A stretch of 64,000 nucleotides of DNA from Azoarcus sp. GTDB lineage: Bacteria; Pseudomonadota; Gammaproteobacteria; Burkholderiales; Rhodocyclaceae. A program made the translations under genes and the position numbers. Shown here in pieces: positions 3,754-60,590 of the stretch. The DNA lies in the NCBI GenBank assembly GCA_031258965.1, contig JAIRMC010000015.1, positions 1 through 64,000 on the forward strand. Reading direction: 5' to 3'. A model generated the notes under the pieces. That model searched no databases, was not told where the DNA came from, and saw only the letters and a list, made by a program, of their open reading frames with translations. How positions within the stretch are numbered: position 1 is the first letter of the stretch; each line of letters begins with the position of its first letter.

Positions 3754-4140
3754 TCAATCACCTGGCGCAATATTCCACAGACCAGCGAATGTCCATAGTA
3801 TCAAACCGCTCAGTAATAGCATTTCGCCGTTCCGGTATAAATGCACCTTACGCTTTCTCGTCCCAATCACCAGTAAGGCCACACCCGAAGCCAATAAAGT
3901 CACGGATACAACAATAAGAGAAAAATACCGTATCACCGGCATGGCTTTCAATGGCGGTATCAAGTCCGACTGAACGCCGATGAAAAAAACGAGCACCGCC
4001 ATGGAAAGTATGGCAGTGAGATAGACAAGGACAGTCATGGGTCTGCCGATGCCAGTACCGACCTGGAAGCTCGTCACGGGGGGCGGATTCCAGAGACTGG
4101 GGGCGGGCCGCGCCTTTCGTGTTCTTCTTCTCGAATTCAC
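3754..4140 (-). CDS. Small membrane protein of unknown function
   Basis: About 128 aa ORF with three predicted hydrophobic segments. Confidence 0.5.
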   Translation of the reverse strand: MNSRRRTRKARPAPSLWNPPPVTSFQVGTGIGRPMTVLVYLTAILSMAVLVFFIGVQSDLIPPLKAMPVIRYFSLIVVSVTLLASGVALLVIGTRKRKVHLYRNGEMLLLSGLILWTFAGLWNIAPGD

Positions 4141-4294
4141 TGTGACTCACAAATTCGTATCGTTATATTGACCCTCATTTTAAGCCTCTTTTCACGGAAC
4201 GATGCGGAAATGTATACCTCCGCGTGAATTTATTCATTCTCTAAATCAGAAGGCAACTACAAAATAAAGTACATCTCTCTATTTCCAGCCAGTA

Positions 4295-4654
4295 ATGAAA
4301 CGTGACGTGAGCTGGACTCCGATCAGCAAAGAAGGCCTTAATACGGAGATCGAACGTGCCCTTGCAAAAATGACGGAAGAGATGCGCCGCAAATTCGCGG
4401 CTATTCGTATTCCATTTCTCGAATTTCGTTGCAGACGTCACGAATTGATGGGCGACGAAACGCTTTACGCAATCGCCAGCAAAGGGCGGCAATACATCAT
4501 CTACGACGATGTGGAAAGCGATTTCGGCCTTGTCGTGCTCTCTCCCGGTGAAAGCGAGCGGACTTTGCGTTTCTGGGTGTTGGCCGACGGGCTTCCAAAT
4601 GCCATGCGGGTGCTGGAGAACGGCGACTACAGCGCATGCTTGGTCGCTCCCTGA
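4295..4654 (+). CDS. Hypothetical protein (119 aa)
   Basis: Intact ORF with balanced composition; no recognised domain. Confidence 0.55.
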   Translation: MKRDVSWTPISKEGLNTEIERALAKMTEEMRRKFAAIRIPFLEFRCRRHELMGDETLYAIASKGRQYIIYDDVESDFGLVVLSPGESERTLRFWVLADGLPNAMRVLENGDYSACLVAP

Positions 4655-39383: not shown

Positions 39384-39509
39384 TACCAAAACAATACCCT
39401 TTCCCGCGTTTTCCCATCCATAGTATTATCACTGGTTCCGCAGCGCTTGCCGCCGCCTTTAAATGATATGACAAAAGATCTTGCGCGCTTGTCGATTGCG
39501 TGACGGCAG

Positions 39510-39521
39510 GGCGGTAGCGTG
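39510..39521 (+). promoter_or_regulatory. ops-like element (GGCGGTAGCGTG), inside a short GGCA...TGCC hairpin
   Basis: Exact string read in the leader between the rfaH-like gene and pseB; matches the enterobacterial ops/JUMPstart core as recalled. Confidence 0.8.
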
Positions 39522-39609
39522 CCTGATCGGTTCAGCGCCGGACTGGGCTGAATTCCCCGACGCAAAAACAGCCCCCCCCTCACTTGCATATGCCCATGCA
39601 AAAAAACAA

Positions 39610-40608
39610 ATGCTAAATAACGCTTCCATCCTGGTGACTGGCGGAACCGGCTCGTTCGGATACAGTTTTGCCGCTCTGACCTTGGCGCGCTATAAGCCAC
39701 GCCGTCTGATCGTATATTCCCGCGACGAAATGAAGCAATGGGAAATGGCGAAGAAATTCCCCGGCGAAGAAAGGCTGCGCTTTTTCATTGGCGATGTGCG
39801 GGACCGGGAACGCCTCTACCGGGCGTTGGACGGTGTGGATTACGCCATCCACGCGGCCGCGACCAAAATCGTGCCGAGCGCTGAATACAATCCGTTTGAA
39901 TGCATCAAGACCAACATCAACGGCGCCATGAACCTGATTGATGCCTGCATTGATAAAAAGGTAAAACGGGTGGTCGCGCTCTCCACGGACAAGGCAAGCA
40001 GCCCGGTCAATCTCTACGGCGCGACCAAACTGGCTTCCGACAAGCTGTTCGTTGCCAGCAATGCCTACGCTGGATGGCATGAAACCCGCTTCTCGGTCGT
40101 GCGTTACGGCAACGTCATGGGATCGCGCGGCTCGGTCATCCCGTTTTTCCTGTCGATCAGGGACAAGGGCATCCTGCCGGTTACGGACGAGCGCATGACC
40201 CGTTTCATGATTTCCTTGGAACAGGGCGTAGAACTGGTATGGCACGCGCTGGAAGACATGGAGGGCGGGGAAATCTATGTAAAAAAAATCCCCTCCATGA
40301 AAGTCGTGGATCTGGCCCGCACCATTGCTCCGGAAGCTCGTCTCGAATTCATCGGCATTCGTCCCGGAGAAAAATTGCACGAACAAATGATCGGCGAAGA
40401 AGACGCGCCTTATACCTATGAATACCCGCATCATTTCAAGATACTACCCGCAATCCACAACTGCCACCTGAGCGAGCGGCATATCAAGGAAGGCAGGAAA
40501 TTGCAGGAAGGTTTCAGCTATACCAGCAATAACAATAGCGAGTGGATGCGCGTAGACGAATTGCAGCAATGGCTTGCCGTCAATCAGGACAGGATCGGGA
40601 AGATCTGA
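39610..40608 (+). CDS. pseB: UDP-N-acetylglucosamine 4,6-dehydratase (inverting), pseudaminic acid type
   Basis: MLNNASILVTGGTGSFGYSFA, HAAATKIVPSAEYNPFECIKTNINGAMNLIDA, LSTDKASSPVNLYGATKLASDKL. Confidence 0.93.
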   Translation: MLNNASILVTGGTGSFGYSFAALTLARYKPRRLIVYSRDEMKQWEMAKKFPGEERLRFFIGDVRDRERLYRALDGVDYAIHAAATKIVPSAEYNPFECIKTNINGAMNLIDACIDKKVKRVVALSTDKASSPVNLYGATKLASDKLFVASNAYAGWHETRFSVVRYGNVMGSRGSVIPFFLSIRDKGILPVTDERMTRFMISLEQGVELVWHALEDMEGGEIYVKKIPSMKVVDLARTIAPEARLEFIGIRPGEKLHEQMIGEEDAPYTYEYPHHFKILPAIHNCHLSERHIKEGRKLQEGFSYTSNNNSEWMRVDELQQWLAVNQDRIGKI

Positions 40609-40610
40609 AC

Positions 40611-41777
40611 ATGATTCCCTACGGTCGCCAGGAAATCACAAGAGCGGATATCGAGGCCGTGGAAGCGGTTCTGCGCTCGGATTTCCTGACACAAGGCCCG
40701 ACGGTTCCCCGTTTTGAAGAAGCCGTGACAACCCGGACAGGAGCTTTGCACGCCGTTGCCGTCAACAGCGCCACTTCCGCCTTGCATCTTGCCTGCCTGG
40801 CGCTGGGACTAGGGCCGGGAGACTGGTTGTGGACTTCGCCCATTACCTTTGTCGCTTCCGCCAATTGCGCGCGTTATTGTGGTGCGGAGGTGGATTTCGT
40901 CGACATAGACCCACATACATACAACCTTTCCCCAAGAGCACTGGAACGAAAACTCGAAGAAGCCGGACGGGCCGGTCGTTTGCCAAAAATAGTAATCCCC
41001 GTGCATCTGTGCGGCCAGTCCTGCGACATGGCGGCGATCCACGCGCTGTCGCGGCGGTTTGGCTTTCGGATCATCGAAGACGCGTCGCACGCCATTGGCG
41101 GGCGTTACCGGAATGAACCCGTGGGAAATTGCCGGTACAGCGACATCACGGTATTCAGTTTCCATCCCGTCAAGATCATCACTACCGGCGAAGGCGGCAT
41201 GGCGCTGACAAATGACGCCGCGCTGGCCGGGGAAATGGCACTCCTGAGAAGCCACGGCATTACCCGCGACCCAGCGCAAATGACCCATGCGCCGGATGGC
41301 CCCTGGTATTACCAGCAGATCCGCCTGGGGTTCAATTACCGCATGACGGACATCCAAGCCGCCCTGGGCCTGAGCCAAATAGCGCGGCTGGAGGAATACG
41401 TGGCGCGCCGCCGGGAATTGGCCGCGCGATATGACCAATTATTGCAAGATTTGCCGCTCGCGCTGCCCTGGCAACATCCCGATGCGCATTCCACGTTTCA
41501 TTTGTATGTCGTGCGCCTGCGGCGGGATGGAATCCAGGTTTCGCACAGGCGGGTCTTCGAGTCCCTGCGCGAACAGGGGATAGGCGTCAACCTGCATTAC
41601 ATTCCTGTGCATACGCAGCCATATTACCGGGATCCAGGGTTTGAAAAAGGTGATTTCCCAAATGCGGAAACTTTCTACAGGGAAGCAATAACCCTGCCGC
41701 TCTATCCAGCACTGCAAGAAAAGAATTTGGCGTCGATAACAGAAGCTTTGGAAATCGCGCTTTGTACAGGAACATGA
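40611..41777 (+). CDS. pseC: UDP-4-amino-4,6-dideoxy-sugar aminotransferase
   Basis: MIPYGRQEITRADIEAVEAVLRSDFLTQGPTVPRFEEA, DASHAIGG, FSFHPVKIITTGEGGM. Confidence 0.92.
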   Translation: MIPYGRQEITRADIEAVEAVLRSDFLTQGPTVPRFEEAVTTRTGALHAVAVNSATSALHLACLALGLGPGDWLWTSPITFVASANCARYCGAEVDFVDIDPHTYNLSPRALERKLEEAGRAGRLPKIVIPVHLCGQSCDMAAIHALSRRFGFRIIEDASHAIGGRYRNEPVGNCRYSDITVFSFHPVKIITTGEGGMALTNDAALAGEMALLRSHGITRDPAQMTHAPDGPWYYQQIRLGFNYRMTDIQAALGLSQIARLEEYVARRRELAARYDQLLQDLPLALPWQHPDAHSTFHLYVVRLRRDGIQVSHRRVFESLREQGIGVNLHYIPVHTQPYYRDPGFEKGDFPNAETFYREAITLPLYPALQEKNLASITEALEIALCTGT

Positions 41778-42027: not shown

Positions 42028-42909
42028 ATGCAAAGTAAACAAAAATTGGCGCTCGGCACGGCTCAGTTTGGTCTCTCCTATGGTGTGGCGAACCAAAATG
42101 GCAAGGTAGCTTTCAAAGAAGTACAAAGAATTTTGTCCAGGGCTAGGGAAGCAGCCATCCGGGTTCTGGACACCGCGATTGGCTATGGTGAAAGCGAAAT
42201 CGTATTGGGGAAAATCGGGATTTCCGATTTCCATGTGGTCAGTAAATTGCCGGGATTGCCGCCGGATTGTCCAGACATCGGGCAATGGGTACGGCGAGAA
42301 CTGGCAAATTCTCTGGCGCGATTGCGGATCGATCATCTGGAAGCCCTGCTCTTGCATCGTCCCGCCCAATTGCAAGAGGCGCGAGGCGAAGCGTTGTACA
42401 CGGCCTTGCGGGATGTCCAGGCGAGCGGCCTTGTCCGAAAAATCGGGATTTCCATCTATACGCCTGACGAACTGGATTTGTTGATGGCGCGTTTCGAGGT
42501 CGATCTGGTGCAGGCGCCCTTGAATCTTCTCGACCGGCGTCTTGTGGATTCGGGTTGGGCTGCGCGATTGACGGCGCGGAGCGTGGAATTGCATACCCGT
42601 TCCTGTTTTCTGCAAGGCTTACTGCTGATGTCGCCAACGGAGCGCCCGCCCGGATTCCAGCGGTTTGCCGCTTGTTGGCGCGATTGGGAAACATGGTTGC
42701 GTGACACGGGACTTTCTCCACTCAAGGCTTGTTTACGTTATGCGCTTTCACAGTCCGAAGCGCGACAGATCATTATCGGTATCGATTCCTCCACGCAGAT
42801 GGATGAAATTCTCGCGACTGCGGAAGAGGACGCCCTGCCGAATTTGCCCGTTTGGACGGAACCGCCAGACCCCTTGCTGTTGAATCCATCCTGCTGGAGC
42901 GCGTTATGA
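42028..42909 (+). CDS. Aldo/keto reductase family protein
   Basis: LALGTAQFGLSYGVANQNG, VLDTAIGYGESE, RLRIDHLEALLLHRP; overlaps the next start by 4 nt. Confidence 0.85.
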   Translation: MQSKQKLALGTAQFGLSYGVANQNGKVAFKEVQRILSRAREAAIRVLDTAIGYGESEIVLGKIGISDFHVVSKLPGLPPDCPDIGQWVRRELANSLARLRIDHLEALLLHRPAQLQEARGEALYTALRDVQASGLVRKIGISIYTPDELDLLMARFEVDLVQAPLNLLDRRLVDSGWAARLTARSVELHTRSCFLQGLLLMSPTERPPGFQRFAACWRDWETWLRDTGLSPLKACLRYALSQSEARQIIIGIDSSTQMDEILATAEEDALPNLPVWTEPPDPLLLNPSCWSAL

Positions 42910-44933
42910 AAACCGTTGCTATCGTCCAGGCGCGCATGGGTTCCACCCGGCTTCCCGGCAAGGTCATGAAGCGGATCAATGGGAAACCCTTGATCGAGCT
43001 TTTGCTGGCGCGCCTCGCCCACGCGAAGGAAGTCGACGAGATCGTGCTCGCGACTTCCCTGGAGGAAACAAACTGGCCCTTGGTCGCACATGTGGAATCG
43101 CTGGGCCATGCCTGCGAACGCGGCAGTGAAAACGACGTGCTTTCGCGCTATGTGGAAGCAGCGCGCGCGCATGGCGCGGATGTCGTGGTGCGCGTCACCG
43201 GCGACTGCCCGCTGGTCGATGCGGCGCTGGTGGATGAATGTATCTCCCGTTTCCGGGCCACGAGCGTTGATTATTACAGCAATACCGACCCGCCGACCTT
43301 TCCGGATGGCCTGGATATCGAGGTCATGCGATTTTCGGCTCTGGAACAGGCGAATGGTGAAACACAAAGCGCCTTTGACCGGGAACATGTCACCCCCTAT
43401 CTCCGGGAATCCGAAAAATTCAGCAAGGGCGTTTTGCAAAACGAACCTGATTTATCGACGCTGCGCTGGACGGTTGATGAACCGTCCGATTTCGAGGTGA
43501 TCGAAAAAATATTCGCGCATTTCGCGCCGGATATTTATTTCTCCTGGCAAGAAGTGCTGGCCTTGCAGGAAAAGCAGCCGGAAATTTTCGTGGCGAATCA
43601 ATCCATCCAACGTAATGAGGGCGTGAATCTGGGCAGAGGGCAAAAACTCTGGAAACGGGCGAAACGGGTCATTCCCGGCGGCAACATGCTGCTTTCCAAA
43701 CGGGCGGAAATGTTCCTGCCGGAACGCTGGCCCGCCTATTTCGAAAAGGCAAGAGGTTGCCGGGTATGGGATCTGGATGGCAACGAATATATCGACATGT
43801 CTATCATGGGAATCGGCACCAACACGCTTGGCTACGGGCACCCGGAAGTCGACGGCGCGGTTCGCCAAACGATCGACAAGGGTAACATGTCCACCTTCAA
43901 TTGTCCCGAGGAAGTGTATCTCGCGGAAAAACTGCTGGAATTGCACCCGTGGGCGGACATGGCGCGTTTTGCCCGTTCCGGCGGCGAGGCCAACGCCATC
44001 GCCATCCGTATCGCCCGGGCGGCTTCCGGCAGGGATAAAGTCGCCATTTGCGGCTATCACGGCTGGCATGACTGGTATTTGTCTGTCAATCTAGGTGACG
44101 AAAAGGGCCTGGACGGCCATCTGCTCCCCGGTCTTGAGCCAAACGGCGTGCCGCGCAATCTACGTGGCACGGTATTTCCATTTGGATACAACAATTACGA
44201 AGAGCTTGAGGCGCTGGTGGAAAGCTACGACATCGGCGTCATCAAAATGGAAGTCATGCGCAATGATGGTCCGAAAAACGACTTCCTGCAAAAAGCGCGC
44301 GCCCTGGCAACGCGCAGAAATATTGTGCTGATTTTCGATGAATGCACTTCCGGTTTCCGGGAGACCTTTGGCGGATTGCACAAAAAATATGGCGTCGAAC
44401 CGGACATGGCAATCTTTGGCAAGGCGCTAGGCAATGGTTATGCCATTACGGCGGTCATTGGGCGGCGCGGGATCATGGAGGCGGCGCAATCGACCTTCAT
44501 CAGTTCGACGTTCTGGACGGAACGCATCGGCCCCGCCGCCGCGCTGGCGACATTGAAGGTCATGGAAAGAATGTCTTCCTGGGAAATCATCACGGCTACC
44601 GGGAATGAGATTCGCGGGAAATGGCAGGCGCTAGCCGATCGGTACGGCTTGAAGATCGCGCATTGGGGCTTGCCCGCATTGACGGGATATACCTTCCAGA
44701 GCGCGAACTCGCTGGCGTACAAGACGCTGGTCACCCAGGAGATGCTGGCGAAAGGCTTTCTCGCAGGCAACAGCGTCTATGTATGCACCGAACACACACC
44801 GGAAATCGTGGAAGCCTATCTTATCGCGCTGGATCCGGTTTTCGCCCGGATTCGGGAATGCGAGGAGGGACGCGACATCCACGAACTGCTCAAGGGGCCG
44901 GTTTGCCATGGCGGCTTCAAGCGGTTAAATTGA
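42906..44933 (+). CDS. Fusion: N-terminal SpsF-type cytidylyltransferase plus C-terminal glutamate-1-semialdehyde aminotransferase-like domain
   Basis: MKTVAIVQARMGSTRLPGKVMKRINGKPL; then KRVIPGGNMLLSKR...DGNEYIDMSIMGIGTNTLGYGHP...FDECTSGFRETFGG...FGKALGNGYAITAVIG. Confidence 0.88.
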   Translation: MKTVAIVQARMGSTRLPGKVMKRINGKPLIELLLARLAHAKEVDEIVLATSLEETNWPLVAHVESLGHACERGSENDVLSRYVEAARAHGADVVVRVTGDCPLVDAALVDECISRFRATSVDYYSNTDPPTFPDGLDIEVMRFSALEQANGETQSAFDREHVTPYLRESEKFSKGVLQNEPDLSTLRWTVDEPSDFEVIEKIFAHFAPDIYFSWQEVLALQEKQPEIFVANQSIQRNEGVNLGRGQKLWKRAKRVIPGGNMLLSKRAEMFLPERWPAYFEKARGCRVWDLDGNEYIDMSIMGIGTNTLGYGHPEVDGAVRQTIDKGNMSTFNCPEEVYLAEKLLELHPWADMARFARSGGEANAIAIRIARAASGRDKVAICGYHGWHDWYLSVNLGDEKGLDGHLLPGLEPNGVPRNLRGTVFPFGYNNYEELEALVESYDIGVIKMEVMRNDGPKNDFLQKARALATRRNIVLIFDECTSGFRETFGGLHKKYGVEPDMAIFGKALGNGYAITAVIGRRGIMEAAQSTFISSTFWTERIGPAAALATLKVMERMSSWEIITATGNEIRGKWQALADRYGLKIAHWGLPALTGYTFQSANSLAYKTLVTQEMLAKGFLAGNSVYVCTEHTPEIVEAYLIALDPVFARIRECEEGRDIHELLKGPVCHGGFKRLN

Positions 44934-46759: not shown

Positions 46760-48328
46760 ATGAAAATCGTTTTCCGCGTCGACGCTTCCTCCATGATGGG
46801 CACGGGCCATGTCATGCGTTGCCTGACCCTGGCCGACGCCCTGGCGGCGAGTGGCGCGAAGTGCCATTTTTTCTGCCGCGAACATCCGGGAAACCTGGTG
46901 GAATGGATACAGAAGACGGGCTATCCAGTGGAAACGCTGCCTTTGTCGGAAAAAAAGGACGCGGATTTGTTTCATTCCCACTGGTTGGGCGCGACGCGGG
47001 AAGAAGACGCGACGGCCTGTGCCGCGCTTCTCGCGCAAAATCCTCCGGTGGATTGGCTGATCGTTGACCATTACGCGCTGGAGGAACATTGGGAAAAAGC
47101 CCTGCACCCTCATTGTCGAAATCTCATGGTCATCGACGATCTGGCCGACCGGCGGCACGATTGCAGCTTGTTGCTGGATCAGAATCTGGTAGCCAATTGG
47201 GAACATCGCTACGATGCCCTTTTGCCAGAATCATGCGGACGCATGCTGGGGCCGCGCTATGCCCTGTTGCAACCGCAGTACGCGGAACTTCATGACCGGA
47301 TTCCCCCGCGCGAAGGAAAAGTTCGCAGAATAATAGCATATTTCGGCGGTGTCGACGCGCATGACCTTTCCGGCATGGCCGTGGATGCCTTCCTGTCCCT
47401 CGAACATCCGGAAATCGCGTTGGATGTAGTCATCCATCCCACGATTCCCCATACCGCCGCGCTTCGGGAAAAAGCGGCGCGCTATCCACGCATCACGCTT
47501 CATGAAAACCTTCCCAGCCTTGCGTCCCTGATGGCCAGGGCGGATTTGGCCATTGGTGCATGTGGGGCGACTTCCTGGGAACGCTGTTGCCTGGGGCTGC
47601 CCACTTTGGCCGTGACCTTGGCGGAAAACCAGCGCCCCATTGCGGCCCAATTGCATGAGCGAGGATTGATCCACTGGCTGGGCGACGCCCCGGAAATCAC
47701 CCCGGCAATTCTGTCGCAAGCCTTGAGGGAAATCATTCCCCAAGGATTGCCGGCCATGTCGGAAGCCTGTCGCGCCCTGGTGGATGGCAGGGGAACCGGG
47801 CGGGTGACAAGCTTGCTGACGATCAATCGGGAAACGCCGCTTGTCGCGCGCCCGGCCAAATGGAAAGACGAAAATTTGCTGCTCGAATGGGCCAACGACC
47901 CCTTGGTTCGGAAGAACAGTTTTCACTCGGAGACCATCGACAGAAACACGCACCGCAAATGGTTCAGGGAACGTTTACGTGAATTCGGGCAATCAAGGCT
48001 CTATATCGTCGAAACAGAATCCGGATTTCCTGTGGGACAGGTGCGTTTTGATCGTCTGGGCCAGGAATGGGAAATGGATTACAGCTTGGATGCTCGCCTG
48101 CGTCGGCGTCATCTGGGGCGTTCTCTGCTCAGGACGGCGCTTTTGAAGTTTCGCCAGGAAATAGACACCCCATTGATTCTGGCGCGAGTAAAAGAAAACA
48201 ATCCGGGATCATGCCGCATTTTTGAAAGCCTGGGCTTTGATAGACAAAATGAATTAAACTCCCCCCCCCTGTACACCCCGGGGGTGGGGTATCGCTATAT
48301 GCTCGAACGCTGCTTCCTGGATAAATGA
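46760..48328 (+). CDS. pseG: PseG-PseH fusion: UDP-sugar hydrolase plus GNAT N-acetyltransferase
   Basis: MKIVFRVDASSMMGTGHVMRCLTLADAL (PseG); ADLAIGACGATSWERCCLGLP; C-terminal GNAT WKDENLLLEWANDPLVRKNSF...RRRHLGRSLLRTALLKF...NPGSCRIFESLGF. Confidence 0.88.
   Translation: MKIVFRVDASSMMGTGHVMRCLTLADALAASGAKCHFFCREHPGNLVEWIQKTGYPVETLPLSEKKDADLFHSHWLGATREEDATACAALLAQNPPVDWLIVDHYALEEHWEKALHPHCRNLMVIDDLADRRHDCSLLLDQNLVANWEHRYDALLPESCGRMLGPRYALLQPQYAELHDRIPPREGKVRRIIAYFGGVDAHDLSGMAVDAFLSLEHPEIALDVVIHPTIPHTAALREKAARYPRITLHENLPSLASLMARADLAIGACGATSWERCCLGLPTLAVTLAENQRPIAAQLHERGLIHWLGDAPEITPAILSQALREIIPQGLPAMSEACRALVDGRGTGRVTSLLTINRETPLVARPAKWKDENLLLEWANDPLVRKNSFHSETIDRNTHRKWFRERLREFGQSRLYIVETESGFPVGQVRFDRLGQEWEMDYSLDARLRRRHLGRSLLRTALLKFRQEIDTPLILARVKENNPGSCRIFESLGFDRQNELNSPPLYTPGVGYRYMLERCFLDK
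48261..48269. repeat. C9 homopolymer at the pseGH/formyltransferase junction
   Basis: AACTCCCCCCCCCTGTAC read directly; count agrees with the translated frame NSPPLY. Confidence 0.95.
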
Positions 48329-48341
48329 GGAAATTCCTGAT

Positions 48342-48974
48342 TTGCTGCTGGATTTGTGGGCGAAAGGGCATCGCATGACCTGGGGGCATCAGGCCGAGGC
48401 GTTGCCCGGCGGCGATCTGTGTTTTTACCTGGGCTATGGAAAGATCGTCGACAGGGTGACTCGCGACCGTTACCAACACAATCTCATCGTGCATGAAAGC
48501 GCTTTGCCGGAAGGAAAAGGCTGGTCGCCCATGACTTGGCAAATACTGGCAGGAAAAAACCAGTTTACCGTTAGTCTGTTTGAGGCCGTGGATGAAGTGG
48601 ACGCCGGGCCGATCTATTTGCAGGAAACCTTCCATTTGCAGGGTACGGAACTGGTATCCGAATGGCGTGCCCTGCAAGCCAAAATGACGCGAAAGTTGTG
48701 CAGCACCTTTATTTCGGAATATCCAGCGGTATTGAATCTCGCCCATCGGCAAGAAGGGAAGGAAAGTTTCTACCCTCGCCGTACCCCGAAGGACAGCCGC
48801 CTGAATCCGGATCGTCCGCTGAAAGAGCAATTCGACCTCCTGCGTGTTGTCGATAACGAACGTTATCCCGCCTATTTTGAAATTGGGGGGAGGGAATATA
48901 TACTCTTCATCTCCAGAAAATCCCAAAAACTTGACATCCACGATAAGGCGTTTCAGGGAGATGAAAACTCATGA
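48342..48974 (+). CDS. Formyltransferase-like protein; the conserved N-terminus extends upstream without a start codon in this frame
   Basis: ALPGGDLCFYLGYGKIV...NLIVHESALPEGKGWSPMTWQILAGKNQFTVSLFEAVDEVDAGPIYLQ; upstream same-frame peptide GIAICSNAASWINEEIP. Confidence 0.7.
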   Translation: MLLDLWAKGHRMTWGHQAEALPGGDLCFYLGYGKIVDRVTRDRYQHNLIVHESALPEGKGWSPMTWQILAGKNQFTVSLFEAVDEVDAGPIYLQETFHLQGTELVSEWRALQAKMTRKLCSTFISEYPAVLNLAHRQEGKESFYPRRTPKDSRLNPDRPLKEQFDLLRVVDNERYPAYFEIGGREYILFISRKSQKLDIHDKAFQGDENS

Positions 48975-49175: not shown

Positions 49176-49861
49176 ATGCAAAATGCCAAGATCTACTTCA
49201 TCGCAAGCGTCAAGGAATGGCATCGTCCGGCCTTCGAGGAGATGGCTTTGTCTTACGGGGGGGGGGCACATGGTATTTTGTAAGCTCGCCCCAGGCGCTT
49301 GGCGAAGCCCTGGCGCGTGTCGTGCCGCGCTATATTTTCTTTTTGCACTGGAACGAAAAGGTTCCCCGGGAAATCTGGTCGCGGATCGAATGTGTCTGTT
49401 TTCACATGACCGACGTGCCCTATGGCCGTGGCGGAAGCCCCTTGCAGAATCTCGTCGTGCGCGGATACAGGGAGACAAAATTATCCGCCCTGCGCATGGT
49501 GGAGGAACTGGATGCCGGGCCGGTATATGTGAAGACGCCCCTGTCTCTTTCGGGCCGCGCCGAGGAAATCTATCTGGAAGCCGGAAGAAAGAGCCTGGAG
49601 CTGGCTCGCTGGATCGCCGAAGAAGAACCCGACCCCACGCCGCAACAGGGCGAAGCGGTCGTCTTCAAACGGCGCGCGCCGGCACAAAGCCTTCTGCCCG
49701 ATCATGGAGATATATCACGTCTTTACGATCACATCCGCATGCTGGACGCGTCGGGCTATCCCCTCGCCTTCGTGGAGCATGGGGCTTTCCGGATCGAGTT
49801 CTTTCACGCAAACCTGGAGAACGGGGAGGTGCGCGCAAGCGTGGTGATTCGCGGAAAATAG
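49176..49861 (+). pseudogene. Second formyltransferase-like gene, split by a G10 tract (frame OFF in this assembly)
   Basis: MQNAKIYFIASVKEWHRPAFEEMALSYGG in one frame; GTWYFVSSPQALGEALARVVPRYIFFLHWNEKVP...CVCFHMTDVPYGRGGSPLQNLVVRGYRETKLSALRMVEELDAGPVYVK in another. Confidence 0.85.
49257..49266. repeat. G10 homopolymer inside the second formyltransferase gene
   Basis: TCTTACGGGGGGGGGGCACATGG read directly. Confidence 0.95.
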
Positions 49862-50836: not shown

Positions 50837-51877
50837 ATGAAAATAGAAAACCGTTTTATCGCCTCTTCCATGCCCCCTTATGTGATCGCGGAGCTTTCCG
50901 CCAATCACAATGGCTCACTGGAGCGCGCCTTGGAAACCATCGATGCCGCCAAGGAATGCGGCGCGGACGCCATCAAGCTGCAAACCTATACGGCGGACAC
51001 CATCACCATCGATTGCGACAAACCCGACTTCATGGTTCGCGGCGGTCCGTGGGATGGCTATAAACTCCATGATCTCTACAAATGGGCGGAGACTCCCTTT
51101 GAATGGCATCAAACCCTGTTCGAGCACGCGCGAAAGATCGGCATCACGGTATTTTCCACGCCTTTCGATGAAACCGCCGTAGACCTGCTGGAAGACCTGC
51201 ATGTACCCGCCTACAAGATTGCTTCCTTTGAAATCGTGGATTTGCCCCTGATTCGTTATATCGCCAGCACGAAAAAACCTATCATCATGTCAACGGGCAT
51301 GGCGAGCGAGGCGGAAATCGAGGAAGCCGTCACCGCCGCGCGGGAAGCGGGATGCCGGGATCTGGCGCTTCTGCATTGCATCAGCAGTTATCCCGCGCCA
51401 GCCGAGGCGGCCAATTTGCGGCAAATGGCGGAACTGGCGCGGCGTTTTGACGTCCTCCCCGGCTTGTCCGACCACACCCTGGGCACGACGGTTTCTATCG
51501 CGGCGGTTGCCTTGGGCGCTTGTATCATCGAAAAACATTTCACCTTGAACCGCGCGGACAAAGGCCCGGATTGCGCGTTTTCCATCGAGCCTTCCGAATT
51601 GCGGCAGTTGAGCGAGGCTGCCCGCGATGCCTGGCTGGCGCTGGGCAAGGCGGGATATGAACGCGCAAAGGTGGAGGAAAGCAGCAAAGTATTCCGGCGT
51701 TCCCTTTATTTTGTCCGCGATTTGCCTGCGGGCGCGGTCGTCACGGCCCAGGACATCCGGCGCATCCGTCCGGGCATGGGCTTGCCGCCGAAATATTTCG
51801 ATGATGTGCTGGGTAAGTGCCTGAACGTGGCGGTGCAAAGAGGAATGCCCGTCCGTTGGGATGTCTTCGATGCCTAA
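50837..51877 (+). CDS. pseI: Pseudaminic acid synthase (NeuB family)
   Basis: PYVIAELSANHNGSLERALETIDAAKECGADAIKLQTYTADTITID, STPFDETAVDLLEDL, LSDHTLGTTVSIAAVALGACIIEKHFTL; C-terminal SAF domain. Confidence 0.94.
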   Translation: MKIENRFIASSMPPYVIAELSANHNGSLERALETIDAAKECGADAIKLQTYTADTITIDCDKPDFMVRGGPWDGYKLHDLYKWAETPFEWHQTLFEHARKIGITVFSTPFDETAVDLLEDLHVPAYKIASFEIVDLPLIRYIASTKKPIIMSTGMASEAEIEEAVTAAREAGCRDLALLHCISSYPAPAEAANLRQMAELARRFDVLPGLSDHTLGTTVSIAAVALGACIIEKHFTLNRADKGPDCAFSIEPSELRQLSEAARDAWLALGKAGYERAKVEESSKVFRRSLYFVRDLPAGAVVTAQDIRRIRPGMGLPPKYFDDVLGKCLNVAVQRGMPVRWDVFDA

Positions 51878-52814: not shown

Positions 52815-54083
52815 GTGGACATGCTGAACCGCCACATTACTCCACAACTCATTCACCTTGCCAAGCAATTTCCCGTGGTCACGATCCTGGGGCCGCGCCA
52901 GTCGGGCAAAACAACGCTGGCGCGGGCCGCGTTTCCACGGCACGAATATCTGAATCTGGAATCGCCTCCCCTGCGGCTAGCGGCGCAACAGGACGCGCTT
53001 GGTTTTTTCAAGGCGCATCCCAGCCCGCTGATTCTGGACGAAATCCAGCGCGTTCCGGAATTGCTGAGTCACATCCAGGTCATGGTGGATGAACAACGGC
53101 AAAAGGGCCGGTTCATCCTGACAGGTTCACATCAGCCGCATCTGGCGGCAGAGATCAGCCAATCGCTGGCGGGCCGCGTGGGCTTGTTGCGTCTCCTGCC
53201 GCTTTCCATTGCCGAACTCGCCGAGGCCGGGCTGAACCTGGAGCGCGACGATTATCTGTACCAGGGCTTCATGCCGGGGGTGCATGCTGAAGGAATCGAA
53301 CCGGACGTTTTTTACCGGAATTATTACCAAACCTATGTCGAGCGCGACGTGCGGCAGTTGATCAACATCACCCATCAGCACGCTTTCGAAATTTTCGTCC
53401 GCTTGCTGGCCGGGAGGGTTGGACAGATCGTCAACCTGAATTCGCTGGCGAATGACGTGGGTGTTTCGAGCACGACATTGGGAACATGGCTCTCCGTGTT
53501 GGAAGCAAGTTTCATCGTGTTTCGGCTACCGCGCTATTTCGAGAATTTCGGCAAACGGCAGATCAAGGCGCCGAAAATCTATTTCAGCGAGGTGGGGCTA
53601 GCTGCCTGGCTGCTGGGGATCGAGACGCCTGCGCAGGCGGCGCGCGATCCGCTTTTCGGTGGGCTGTTCGAGAACATGGTGGTGGTGGAAGCCATGAAGG
53701 CAAGGCTCAACGCGGGCCGGGAAGCGGAATTGTATTTTTTCCGCGACCAGCGGGGACTGGAGATCGATCTGATCGCGCGCCGGGGGCGGCGTCTGCTGCC
53801 CATCGAAATCAAGGGCGGCATGACCTACGATCCCTGGTTCGCCAGGAACCTGAAAGCGTTCCTCAAGCTGACCAACGCGGGCGAATCGCCCACCGTGATT
53901 TACGCGGGAGAGCAAGCGGCATTCGCGGAAGGCGTCGAATACGCCAATTTCCGGGACACCGCCCGTATCATCGCCGCGTTGGATGGGGCGGAAATCACGT
54001 CCTCCACGCAAGCGGTGCGGCGCGGCGGCGGAAGCGTCCATGACGATCAGGAAGGCGCGACGAGCGGAAAACAGGAAAGATAG
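52815..54083 (+). CDS. DUF4143-type AAA ATPase
   Basis: VVTILGPRQSGKTTLARAAFP, ILDEIQRVPELLSHIQVMVDE, RFILTGSHQPHLAAEISQSLAGRVGLLRLLPLS, DYLYQGFMPG. Confidence 0.9.
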   Translation: MDMLNRHITPQLIHLAKQFPVVTILGPRQSGKTTLARAAFPRHEYLNLESPPLRLAAQQDALGFFKAHPSPLILDEIQRVPELLSHIQVMVDEQRQKGRFILTGSHQPHLAAEISQSLAGRVGLLRLLPLSIAELAEAGLNLERDDYLYQGFMPGVHAEGIEPDVFYRNYYQTYVERDVRQLINITHQHAFEIFVRLLAGRVGQIVNLNSLANDVGVSSTTLGTWLSVLEASFIVFRLPRYFENFGKRQIKAPKIYFSEVGLAAWLLGIETPAQAARDPLFGGLFENMVVVEAMKARLNAGREAELYFFRDQRGLEIDLIARRGRRLLPIEIKGGMTYDPWFARNLKAFLKLTNAGESPTVIYAGEQAAFAEGVEYANFRDTARIIAALDGAEITSSTQAVRRGGGSVHDDQEGATSGKQER

Positions 54084-54085
54084 CG

Positions 54086-54614
54086 ATGCGGTTCGATACA
54101 TCCTGGACGGAAAATGAAGCGCGTGAGTTGCGTGAACTACTCTCTGAAATGCGAAAAGCGTATGAAAAAGGCGAAAACGCGATGGAGCTCGCTCGCTAGA
54201 ACTCAATGGCGGGCACGAGGAAGCGGCCCTGCGGGAACTGCTGCGCGTGACGCGCCGCGCGCTTGTCCTGGTCGAGCCAATTTACGAGCTGGCGGACAGC
54301 GAGGCCCGCGAGTGCATGACGAGACATGGCTATGTGCGCAATCTCTGCGGCGTCGTGGCGTCCCTTGGCCATGACGTGAAGGGGTGCCGCCTGCTGGATT
54401 ACGCGGAAAATCCATTGAACCTCAGTGGTGTAATGCGAATCGAGAAATCCCCCCCCCCGAGAACTTGCCGCTCCGCGTATTGCCTGGCGCTGCCCGCTCA
54501 CGCGCACGCCTTTGTCGCCTGCGGGATTTTCCGATTAGCCGCGCCACAGCGGAGCGTATCCTGGCGGCGATTGAATCGACATTATCGTGTATTTGTTTAA
54601 AACAAGGGAATTGA
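54086..54614 (+). pseudogene. Degenerate SAM methyltransferase relic: apparent internal deletion, frame breaks and a C10 tract (54449-54458)
   Basis: MRFDTSWTENEARELRELLSEMRKAYEKGENAMELAR* then, in another frame, LELNGGHEEAALRELLRVTRRALVLVEPIYELADSEARECMTRHGYVRNL...; SAM-binding core not found between them. Confidence 0.6.
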
Positions 54615-58793: not shown

Positions 58794-59949
58794 GGTCATT
58801 TATCCGTTTGTCGGGGATTCCGTGGGGGGAAGTCATATTTCCACGCTTACGCTGATCCGGACGCTGGATCGGCGCTTTTTCACGCCCGTGATCGTCCTGC
58901 ACCAGGAGGGCGCGCTTGCGGAGTTTCTTCAGGAAAACGGCGTGAAATATGAAATATTGCCTCTTCCCGCCTATGCGGGCGCGACGCCCCGCCTTTCCGA
59001 TATTCTCCGAAGCGCGGCGCGCGCGGCCGCGACGCTTCGCCGCTTTTGCCACGAACGGGACGCGAGCCTCATCCACGGAAACGATCTCAGGATCAATCTC
59101 ACCTGGGGATTGTCCGTGTGGGGAACCCAATACCGGTTCATATGGCACCAGCGCAGCATCCCCAACTCCCGTTCATGGCTTTGGAAGCTGGTTCCGAAGC
59201 TGGCGGATCATGTGATCTTCATTTCATCGGCAACGCGAGAAAGGATGTTGGGCAAGAAAGAAAGCCCCCGGCACTCCATCATCATGAACCCCGTCTCGGT
59301 AAACCCGTTGTCGCCGCAACAGAAGAAACATGCGCGTGAATGCCTGCGCGAATCCCTGGGGCTGGAACAGGATGCATGGGTATTTGCTTTCGTCGCGCGT
59401 CTTGTTTCCCTAAAAAAACCGGAAACATTCATTCGTGTCCTGGCAAGAATCCAGCGGGAATCACAGCATCCGGTTTGCGGGATCTTGGCGGGGCATGATC
59501 AAGATGGCTTGCGGCAGGAACTGGAAAATCTGGCCTTTCGTCTTGGCATCGGGGAATCCGTCCGCTTCCTGGGTTTTCGATCCCCGATCGATTCCTGTAT
59601 CGCGGGCAGCGATCTCCTGATCGCGCCAAGTTACTGGGATGCATTTGGACGCACGCTGGTGGAAGCCATGCTGTTGGAAACGCCCGTCCTGGCAAGCAAT
59701 GCCGGAGGACACAGGGAAATCATCAAGGAAGGCAAGAATGGCTTGTTCGCGGAAGTGGACGATGTGGAAGAATTTTGTGTGAAAGCCATACGGATCATGA
59801 TGGATAAATACACGCGGGAGAACCTTGCGAAAACGGCGCTTCTGGACGCGCAACAGCGTTTTTCCGCTCATTCTCACGCGGAGGCGGTTTCCGCCATTTA
59901 TCGCAAGGTGACAGGCAAAAAAGAAAGGCGGGAAGCATGGCGAGAATAG
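58753..59949 (+). CDS. GT4-family glycosyltransferase
   Basis: VFAFVARLVSLKKPETFIRVLARI, VRFLGFRSPI, DAFGRTLVEAMLLETPVLASNAGGHREII. Confidence 0.9.
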   Translation: MGFPGMADVMDALKVIYPFVGDSVGGSHISTLTLIRTLDRRFFTPVIVLHQEGALAEFLQENGVKYEILPLPAYAGATPRLSDILRSAARAAATLRRFCHERDASLIHGNDLRINLTWGLSVWGTQYRFIWHQRSIPNSRSWLWKLVPKLADHVIFISSATRERMLGKKESPRHSIIMNPVSVNPLSPQQKKHARECLRESLGLEQDAWVFAFVARLVSLKKPETFIRVLARIQRESQHPVCGILAGHDQDGLRQELENLAFRLGIGESVRFLGFRSPIDSCIAGSDLLIAPSYWDAFGRTLVEAMLLETPVLASNAGGHREIIKEGKNGLFAEVDDVEEFCVKAIRIMMDKYTRENLAKTALLDAQQRFSAHSHAEAVSAIYRKVTGKKERREAWRE

Positions 59950-60590
59950 AGATCATCGGCTTGCCGGGTTCCGGGAAAACGACCCTTCTGGAACGATTGC
60001 AAGCGGCTCGGCCGCTTCCTCCGCTGCTGGCGCCGATCAATCCTGGCGGCATTTCGACGATCCGTCACGCCTTGCGGCTTGCTGGAAAATTGTTCTTGTC
60101 GAAGGGTTTTTCGAGCCTGCTGGCAAGAAAAGACGCGACCTGGCTTTTTTCCAAGCTGGGCTATCGCTTGGCGGGCCTGAAGATGCGGGGGGGGGGGGGA
60201 ATACTGGTTGATTCAGGGGTTTTGATGCCACTGGTCTCCTATGCGTCGGAATATGCAAACAGGGATGCCGTTGCCAGTGATGTCCTGGGATTGCTGCCTA
60301 TCCTACCCCGGCCCGATGGCATGATTTATCTGAATAGTGGTGTTGACGTGTCGTTGGAACGTTATTTGCGACGGCAGGAATCGATGGGTCGGCGCCCTGG
60401 CACGGAAATCGATGCTCGGAGGTTTGCAATTGCCCAGGAAATCTGTGAGGGCATCTGGAATTTTTTCCCGGAAGATAGAAAATTTCTCGTTGCGGGAGAA
60501 GGCGTAGTGACAGATGCCGCGCTTGATGAAATTGCGTGCCAGATGAGGACATGGTTCAACATGGAGAATAATGGTCATGAAATTTCGTGA
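59937..60590 (+). CDS. P-loop kinase-like protein with an in-frame G13 tract (60187-60199)
   Basis: MARIEIIGLPGSGKTTLLERLQAARP Walker A; tract encodes RGGGG in GLKMRGGGGILVDSG. Confidence 0.75.
   Translation: MARIEIIGLPGSGKTTLLERLQAARPLPPLLAPINPGGISTIRHALRLAGKLFLSKGFSSLLARKDATWLFSKLGYRLAGLKMRGGGGILVDSGVLMPLVSYASEYANRDAVASDVLGLLPILPRPDGMIYLNSGVDVSLERYLRRQESMGRRPGTEIDARRFAIAQEICEGIWNFFPEDRKFLVAGEGVVTDAALDEIACQMRTWFNMENNGHEIS
60187..60199. repeat. G13 homopolymer in the kinase-like gene
   Basis: AAGATGCGGGGGGGGGGGGGAATAC read directly; consistent with the ORF translation. Confidence 0.95.

Follow-up and report, generated by a model that had tools for sequence, protein, structure and literature searches.

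Adjacent formyltransferase genes broken at G/C tracts in a pseudaminic-acid cluster of Azoarcus sp.: a candidate case of phase variation

Poly-G tracts of at least 8 nucleotides switch genes in Campylobacter (C. jejuni), and the core phasome of C. fetus includes CFT03427_1556, a formyltransferase domain-containing protein with a G(9-10) tract (PMC6321876). In Helicobacter canadensis, HCAN_0643, a methionyl-tRNA formyltransferase with a poly-G tract, belongs to a tract-rich cluster, and another tract determines whether two proteins are produced as one chain or separately (PMC2823697). Formyltransferases have also been reported in flagellin glycosylation islands (PMC5109656), and Halorubrum is reported to have an N-formylated nonulosonic acid whose locus includes a candidate formyltransferase (PMC6137143). 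As tract-bearing formyltransferases are already known in Campylobacter and Helicobacter, the gene described here, formyltransferase 2 (Ft2), appears to be a new candidate example of an existing class.

The C. fetus gene resembles Ft2 in coding for a formyltransferase and in the length of its G tract, and the likeness extends to the presence of methyltransferases and short-chain dehydrogenases in the C. fetus tract-bearing gene set. However, length variation between genomes has been documented for C. fetus, whereas Ft2 is known from one betaproteobacterial genome that has many other long G/C runs. H. canadensis is similar in that its tracts gather in a single locus that contains formyl- and methyltransferases, and its joining tract acts as a C9 tract would act here on a PseG-GNAT fusion and a second formyltransferase (Ft1). 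On the other hand, the H. canadensis formyltransferase tract is of the C-terminal type with measured population variation, while the Ft2 tract lies near the 5' end and is known from one sequence.

The stretch of DNA analysed (64,000 nucleotides, referred to as the window) comes from contig C34 of a 2.71-Mb, 145-contig draft genome that is 93.7% complete. A pseudaminic-acid and polysaccharide cluster begins at about 39 kb of the window with PseB and PseC (39481–41777, + strand; TIGR03589, E 1e-157, and TIGR03588, E 4e-171). Further along are PseG, fused to a PseH-like GNAT acetyltransferase in a protein of 522 aa (46760–48328, + strand; PseG matching TIGR03590, E 9e-93), and the pseudaminic acid synthase PseI (50837–51877, + strand; TIGR03586, E 6e-154). 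PseB, PseC, PseG and PseI all exceed the curated cut-offs (4 of 4). The candidate cytidylyltransferase, which we do not assign to PseF, is a CTP_transf_3 domain fused to a class III aminotransferase (42852–44933), the aminotransferase part of which is glutamate-1-semialdehyde-aminomutase-like. Other genes in the early part of the cluster encode a NusG-like factor, an aldo-keto reductase-like protein, a FemAB-like protein and methyltransferases. Near Ft2 the order is PseG-GNAT, Ft1, Ft2, a methyltransferase, PseI and a PIG-L deacetylase, with glycosyltransferases and an ABC transporter downstream of the last.

The Ft2 reading frame is broken by a G tract. A sequence-only reading of this region had described a run of ten G separating two frames, and both elements were confirmed: the tract (49257–49266, + strand) consists of exactly 10 G, the upstream frame starts at the ATG at 49176, contains MQNAKIYFIASVKEWHRPAFEEMALSYGG and ends in ...GGGAHGIL* at a TAA (49281–49283), and the second frame reads TWYFVSSPQAL...VVIRGK. 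The N-terminal piece (49176–49283, + strand), corresponding to strand 1 and helix 1, thus has 29 genuine residues, then 6 out-of-frame residues and the TAA, while the main part of the gene, with the PF21553 C-terminal domain, occupies the second frame (49268–49861, + strand, including the stop, which ends at 49861). The frames on either side differ, whereas those of the relatives are continuous, and the changeover maps to 49257–49266, which agrees with the earlier placement of the break exactly on the tract. The accompanying arithmetic, by which a net gain of one nucleotide (11 G or 8 G) restores Ft2, is likewise correct. After the tract there is no further stop or shift over 196 codons, and slippage within the tract is the simplest reading of how the break arose. 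An ORF beginning at an internal ATG in the downstream frame (49217–49861, + strand, 214 aa) has a short unrelated leader in place of strand 1 and helix 1, so its product is probably non-functional.

Ft2 is predicted to be an N-formyltransferase of the 1zgh/PF21553 family within the pseudaminic-acid polysaccharide cluster. The original assignment as a formyltransferase stands, given the match of Ft2 to PF21553 (E 7.7e-20, 70.7 bits against a cut-off of 27) and the whole-length match of its family to PDB 1zgh (E 3e-80), in which profile positions 5–225 correspond to 1zgh residues 32–255. The 1zgh protein, deposited as a methionyl-tRNA formyltransferase, is like Ft2 over its full length, including the N-terminal strand before the tract, but it has no glycine run at the loop where Ft2 has its tract. 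Ft2 retains the His and the Asp (of LDAG) found in the canonical N-x-H plus Asp arrangement of Fmt and ArnA. At the position of the catalytic Asn of N-x-H, the family, including 1zgh, has Cys, Val or Ile (window 49385–49440 and homologues).

The N-terminal segment is carried by four intact, tract-less relatives from other lineages (L062, L063, L064 and L065) and by the homologue in genome G280 (L167), with 49–62% identity to Ft2 downstream of the tract position. The possibility raised beforehand, that homologues might start naturally downstream of the tract, therefore fails, as all of them carry this segment and 1zgh also aligns there. When the Ft2 N-terminal piece was compared with the N-termini of the five intact relatives, the summed local score was 191; shuffled controls (n = 5000) gave a mean of 78 and a maximum of 146, with none of the 5000 at 191, and the same DNA read in its two other frames scored 98 and 78. 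The piece is therefore not a chance peptide. At the tract position the relatives have a shorter loop (LPGQW, LPGTW, FPGEW or MPGKW). The L062 protein was modelled (mean pLDDT 77, and about 83–90 in the first 70 residues): strand 1 spans residues 3–8, helix 1 residues 11–21 and strand 2 residues 27–31, so that the tract position, at residues 24–26 (LPG), lies between helix 1 and strand 2. The model thus places the G10 tract in the loop between these two elements of Ft2.

The closest named relative found is L061, a MAG labelled Zoogloeaceae bacterium Gsp477_bin78. Over the 196 codons after the tract, Ft2 and its L061 counterpart are 74% identical and stop-free in both, with dS 1.10, dN 0.161 and dN/dS 0.146, the high dS making such ratios rough; the corresponding dN/dS values are 0.126 for PseI, 0.117 for the neighbouring methyltransferase and 0.205 for PIG-L. 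The downstream part of Ft2 is under purifying selection. As its sequence is clean and its dN/dS low, the inactivation, if permanent, must be recent. In the window the tract is followed by a Trp codon, and the L061 contig starts 2 nt ahead of the corresponding codon; the upstream part of the locus was not found in the L061 assembly. We considered whether the ends of the L061 contig might prove tract polymorphism and rejected this as proof, since an assembly graph that breaks at a variable run ought to retain it and the contig has no leading G. Among 21 other species of the genus no relative of Ft2 was found.

The gene immediately upstream is also frame-broken on a tract. Ft1 (48270–48974, + strand; PF00551; present as ORF 48342–48974) has no ATG, GTG or TTG of its own before SWINEEIPD, leaving its first strand without a usable start. 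Traced upstream, its frame reads AICSNAASWINEEIPDLL and reaches a C9 tract at the GNAT/Ft1 junction (48261–48269, + strand), about 20 codons past which PseG-GNAT stops while Ft1 goes on in another frame. In genomes G330 (L168) and G280 (L167), both Burkholderiales, the Ft1 homologue is the third domain of a single PseG-GNAT-Ft1 chain, followed in G280 by the Ft2 homologue and then PseI, the same order as in the window. Ft1 shows no lesion besides the C9 break, which is of opposite sense to the break in Ft2.

G/C tracts are clustered in this glycan locus. The 25 kb from 39001 to 64000, of moderate G+C, contain four G/C runs of at least 9, where 0.46 are expected under a first-order and 0.085 under a second-order Markov model, and no simulation of either reached four; a fifth-order model, which learns the tracts themselves, expects 2.6. 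Elsewhere in the genome, 25 such runs are spread over about 2.69 Mb, or about 0.23 per 25 kb, giving a Poisson probability of about 1e-4 for at least four runs in 25 kb before correction for the choice of region. Those inspected are intergenic, close to the end of a gene, or in frame within ordinary genes, with in-frame tracts of 9–11 in HisRS (hisS, G10), MreC (C11), FimV, a secretin and SPOR proteins. Tract length alone is therefore no proof of a switch. No clear mid-gene break was seen among the inspected runs elsewhere in the genome, and it is thus by the broken frames of Ft1 and Ft2, and not by the runs as such, that the glycan locus is distinct. As MutS is present, no increase in slippage comes from its loss, and we dismissed a mismatch repair defect for this reason.

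On balance we favour translational phase variation by slipped-strand mispairing as the explanation for the state of Ft2, with real reservations. As in phase-variable genes, tracts of at least 8 G/C lie inside the reading frame (G10 in Ft2, C9 at GNAT/Ft1), and their length decides whether a full-length protein is encoded. This reading is favoured because the break falls exactly on a tract in a gene with intact relatives; because the downstream sequence is clean, with a dN/dS like those of pseI and the methyltransferase; because the adjacent formyltransferase Ft1 is interrupted at a tract of its own, at a point where the G330 and G280 chain is continuous; and because tracts are clustered in the locus and have precedents in Campylobacter and Helicobacter. 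It is weakened by the 25 other runs of at least 9 in the genome, mostly intergenic or in frame, by runs of this kind in or beside ordinary genes of a sister species, by the presence of MutS and by an irreversible deletion in a third damaged gene of the locus, which fits decay. In the favoured scheme, the Ft2 tract would add glycines to a surface loop, where only some lengths keep the frame; the present G10, in the loop of the first fold unit, leaves the beginning of the gene in a different frame from its body, a non-productive state, and whether a given sister cell produces the enzyme would depend on tract length. Similarly, the present C9 length yields PseG-GNAT alone, without the third, formyltransferase domain. 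The outcome would be surface pseudaminic acid that alternates between a formylated and a non-formylated (probably N-acetylated) form. The surface-modification role of Ft1 and Ft2 is suggested by their locus, and we infer the instability and reversibility of the tracts, which sugar is formylated and at which position, and which surface polymer is concerned. The +28 Da proposed in the sequence-only reading as the formyl signature is right relative to a free amine, and a formyl would be 14 Da lighter if the alternative were N-acetyl; the signature to expect is set by the group present in the OFF state. A broader proposal is more tentative and, in our view, rather less likely to hold: that, in a betaproteobacterium of gut or environmental habitat, two independent tracts gate two formyltransferases of one pseudaminic-acid pathway, one tract toggling between PseG-GNAT and a trifunctional PseG-GNAT-formyltransferase, with clone-mates displaying different acetyl/formyl mixtures.

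The most serious competitor, which we nevertheless consider unlikely, is a recent one-way loss, in which slippage inactivated Ft2 and the gene is now drifting to a pseudogene without any selection for switching. Frameshift mutations fall in long homopolymers anyway, and the same locus does contain a truly deleted methyltransferase, preceded by an AAA/DUF4143 gene that L061 does not have. However, neither Ft2 nor Ft1 has a second lesion, the dN/dS of Ft2 is as low as those of intact neighbours, and two tract breaks in adjacent, functionally related genes demand two independent events.

It is less probable still that PCR stutter or an assembler choice has put the consensus off by one base in a gene that is really whole. 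In favour of this, the assembly is a draft of 145 contigs, the breaks sit on long homopolymers, whose lengths are the least reliably called, and the two ends of the L061 contig fall near two of these tract positions; yet the 9–11 tracts in conserved genes of the same assembly (HisRS G10, MreC C11, FimV, secretin, SPOR) were called in frame, and frameshifts are not scattered through the remainder of the cluster. Runs of such length are slippery in principle, and with purifying selection intact one might imagine that slippage of the ribosome or of RNA polymerase at the tract lets some full-length protein be made from the present sequence. We regard such recoding as very improbable: Ft1 and Ft2 require shifts of opposite sense, so one mechanism would not serve both genes, and in the relatives these points show neither a tract nor a change of frame.

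If the tracts do vary, tract-driven switching of nonulosonic-acid chemistry would extend beyond the well-studied Campylobacter and Helicobacter species to an uncultured betaproteobacterial lineage, and tract-length spectra from reads would offer a simple metagenomic test of whether phages or hosts exert pressure on surface sugars. Less expected is the split between PseG-GNAT and Ft1, as tract length would there set the number of enzymatic domains per polypeptide.

Several further observations were made on tracts in this locus, genome and genus. The G10 tract of hisS (L094, 3754–3763; contig C83 of genome G000) is an oddity in an essential gene. Across the genomes of the genus, runs of at least 9 number from 1 to 38 per genome. 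In a sister species (G009), long runs lie in or beside glmS, purA and cysS (identified by eye), and intergenic repeats (L150–L156) combine C runs of 13–37 with adjoining G runs of 9–18, which are either real or an assembly artefact. As the long runs of G009 mostly fall within intergenic repeats or keep the frame of housekeeping genes, the idea that the whole genus is a phase-variation specialist was rejected as unsupported. In the window, a C10 tract (54449–54458, + strand) forms the 3' end of a methyltransferase remnant (54113–54458) that retains the N- and C-terminal parts of the gene at L061 positions 3806–4567, with the centre deleted; the remnant is dead whatever the tract length and makes a weaker case than Ft1 or Ft2. 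Between PIG-L and this remnant lies an AAA_14/DUF4143 ATPase gene (52815–54083), which L061 lacks at that position. The longest tract in the window, a G13 run (60187–60199, + strand), belongs to the same polysaccharide cluster and is in frame in an ORF (59937–60590) that is weakly P-loop kinase-like.
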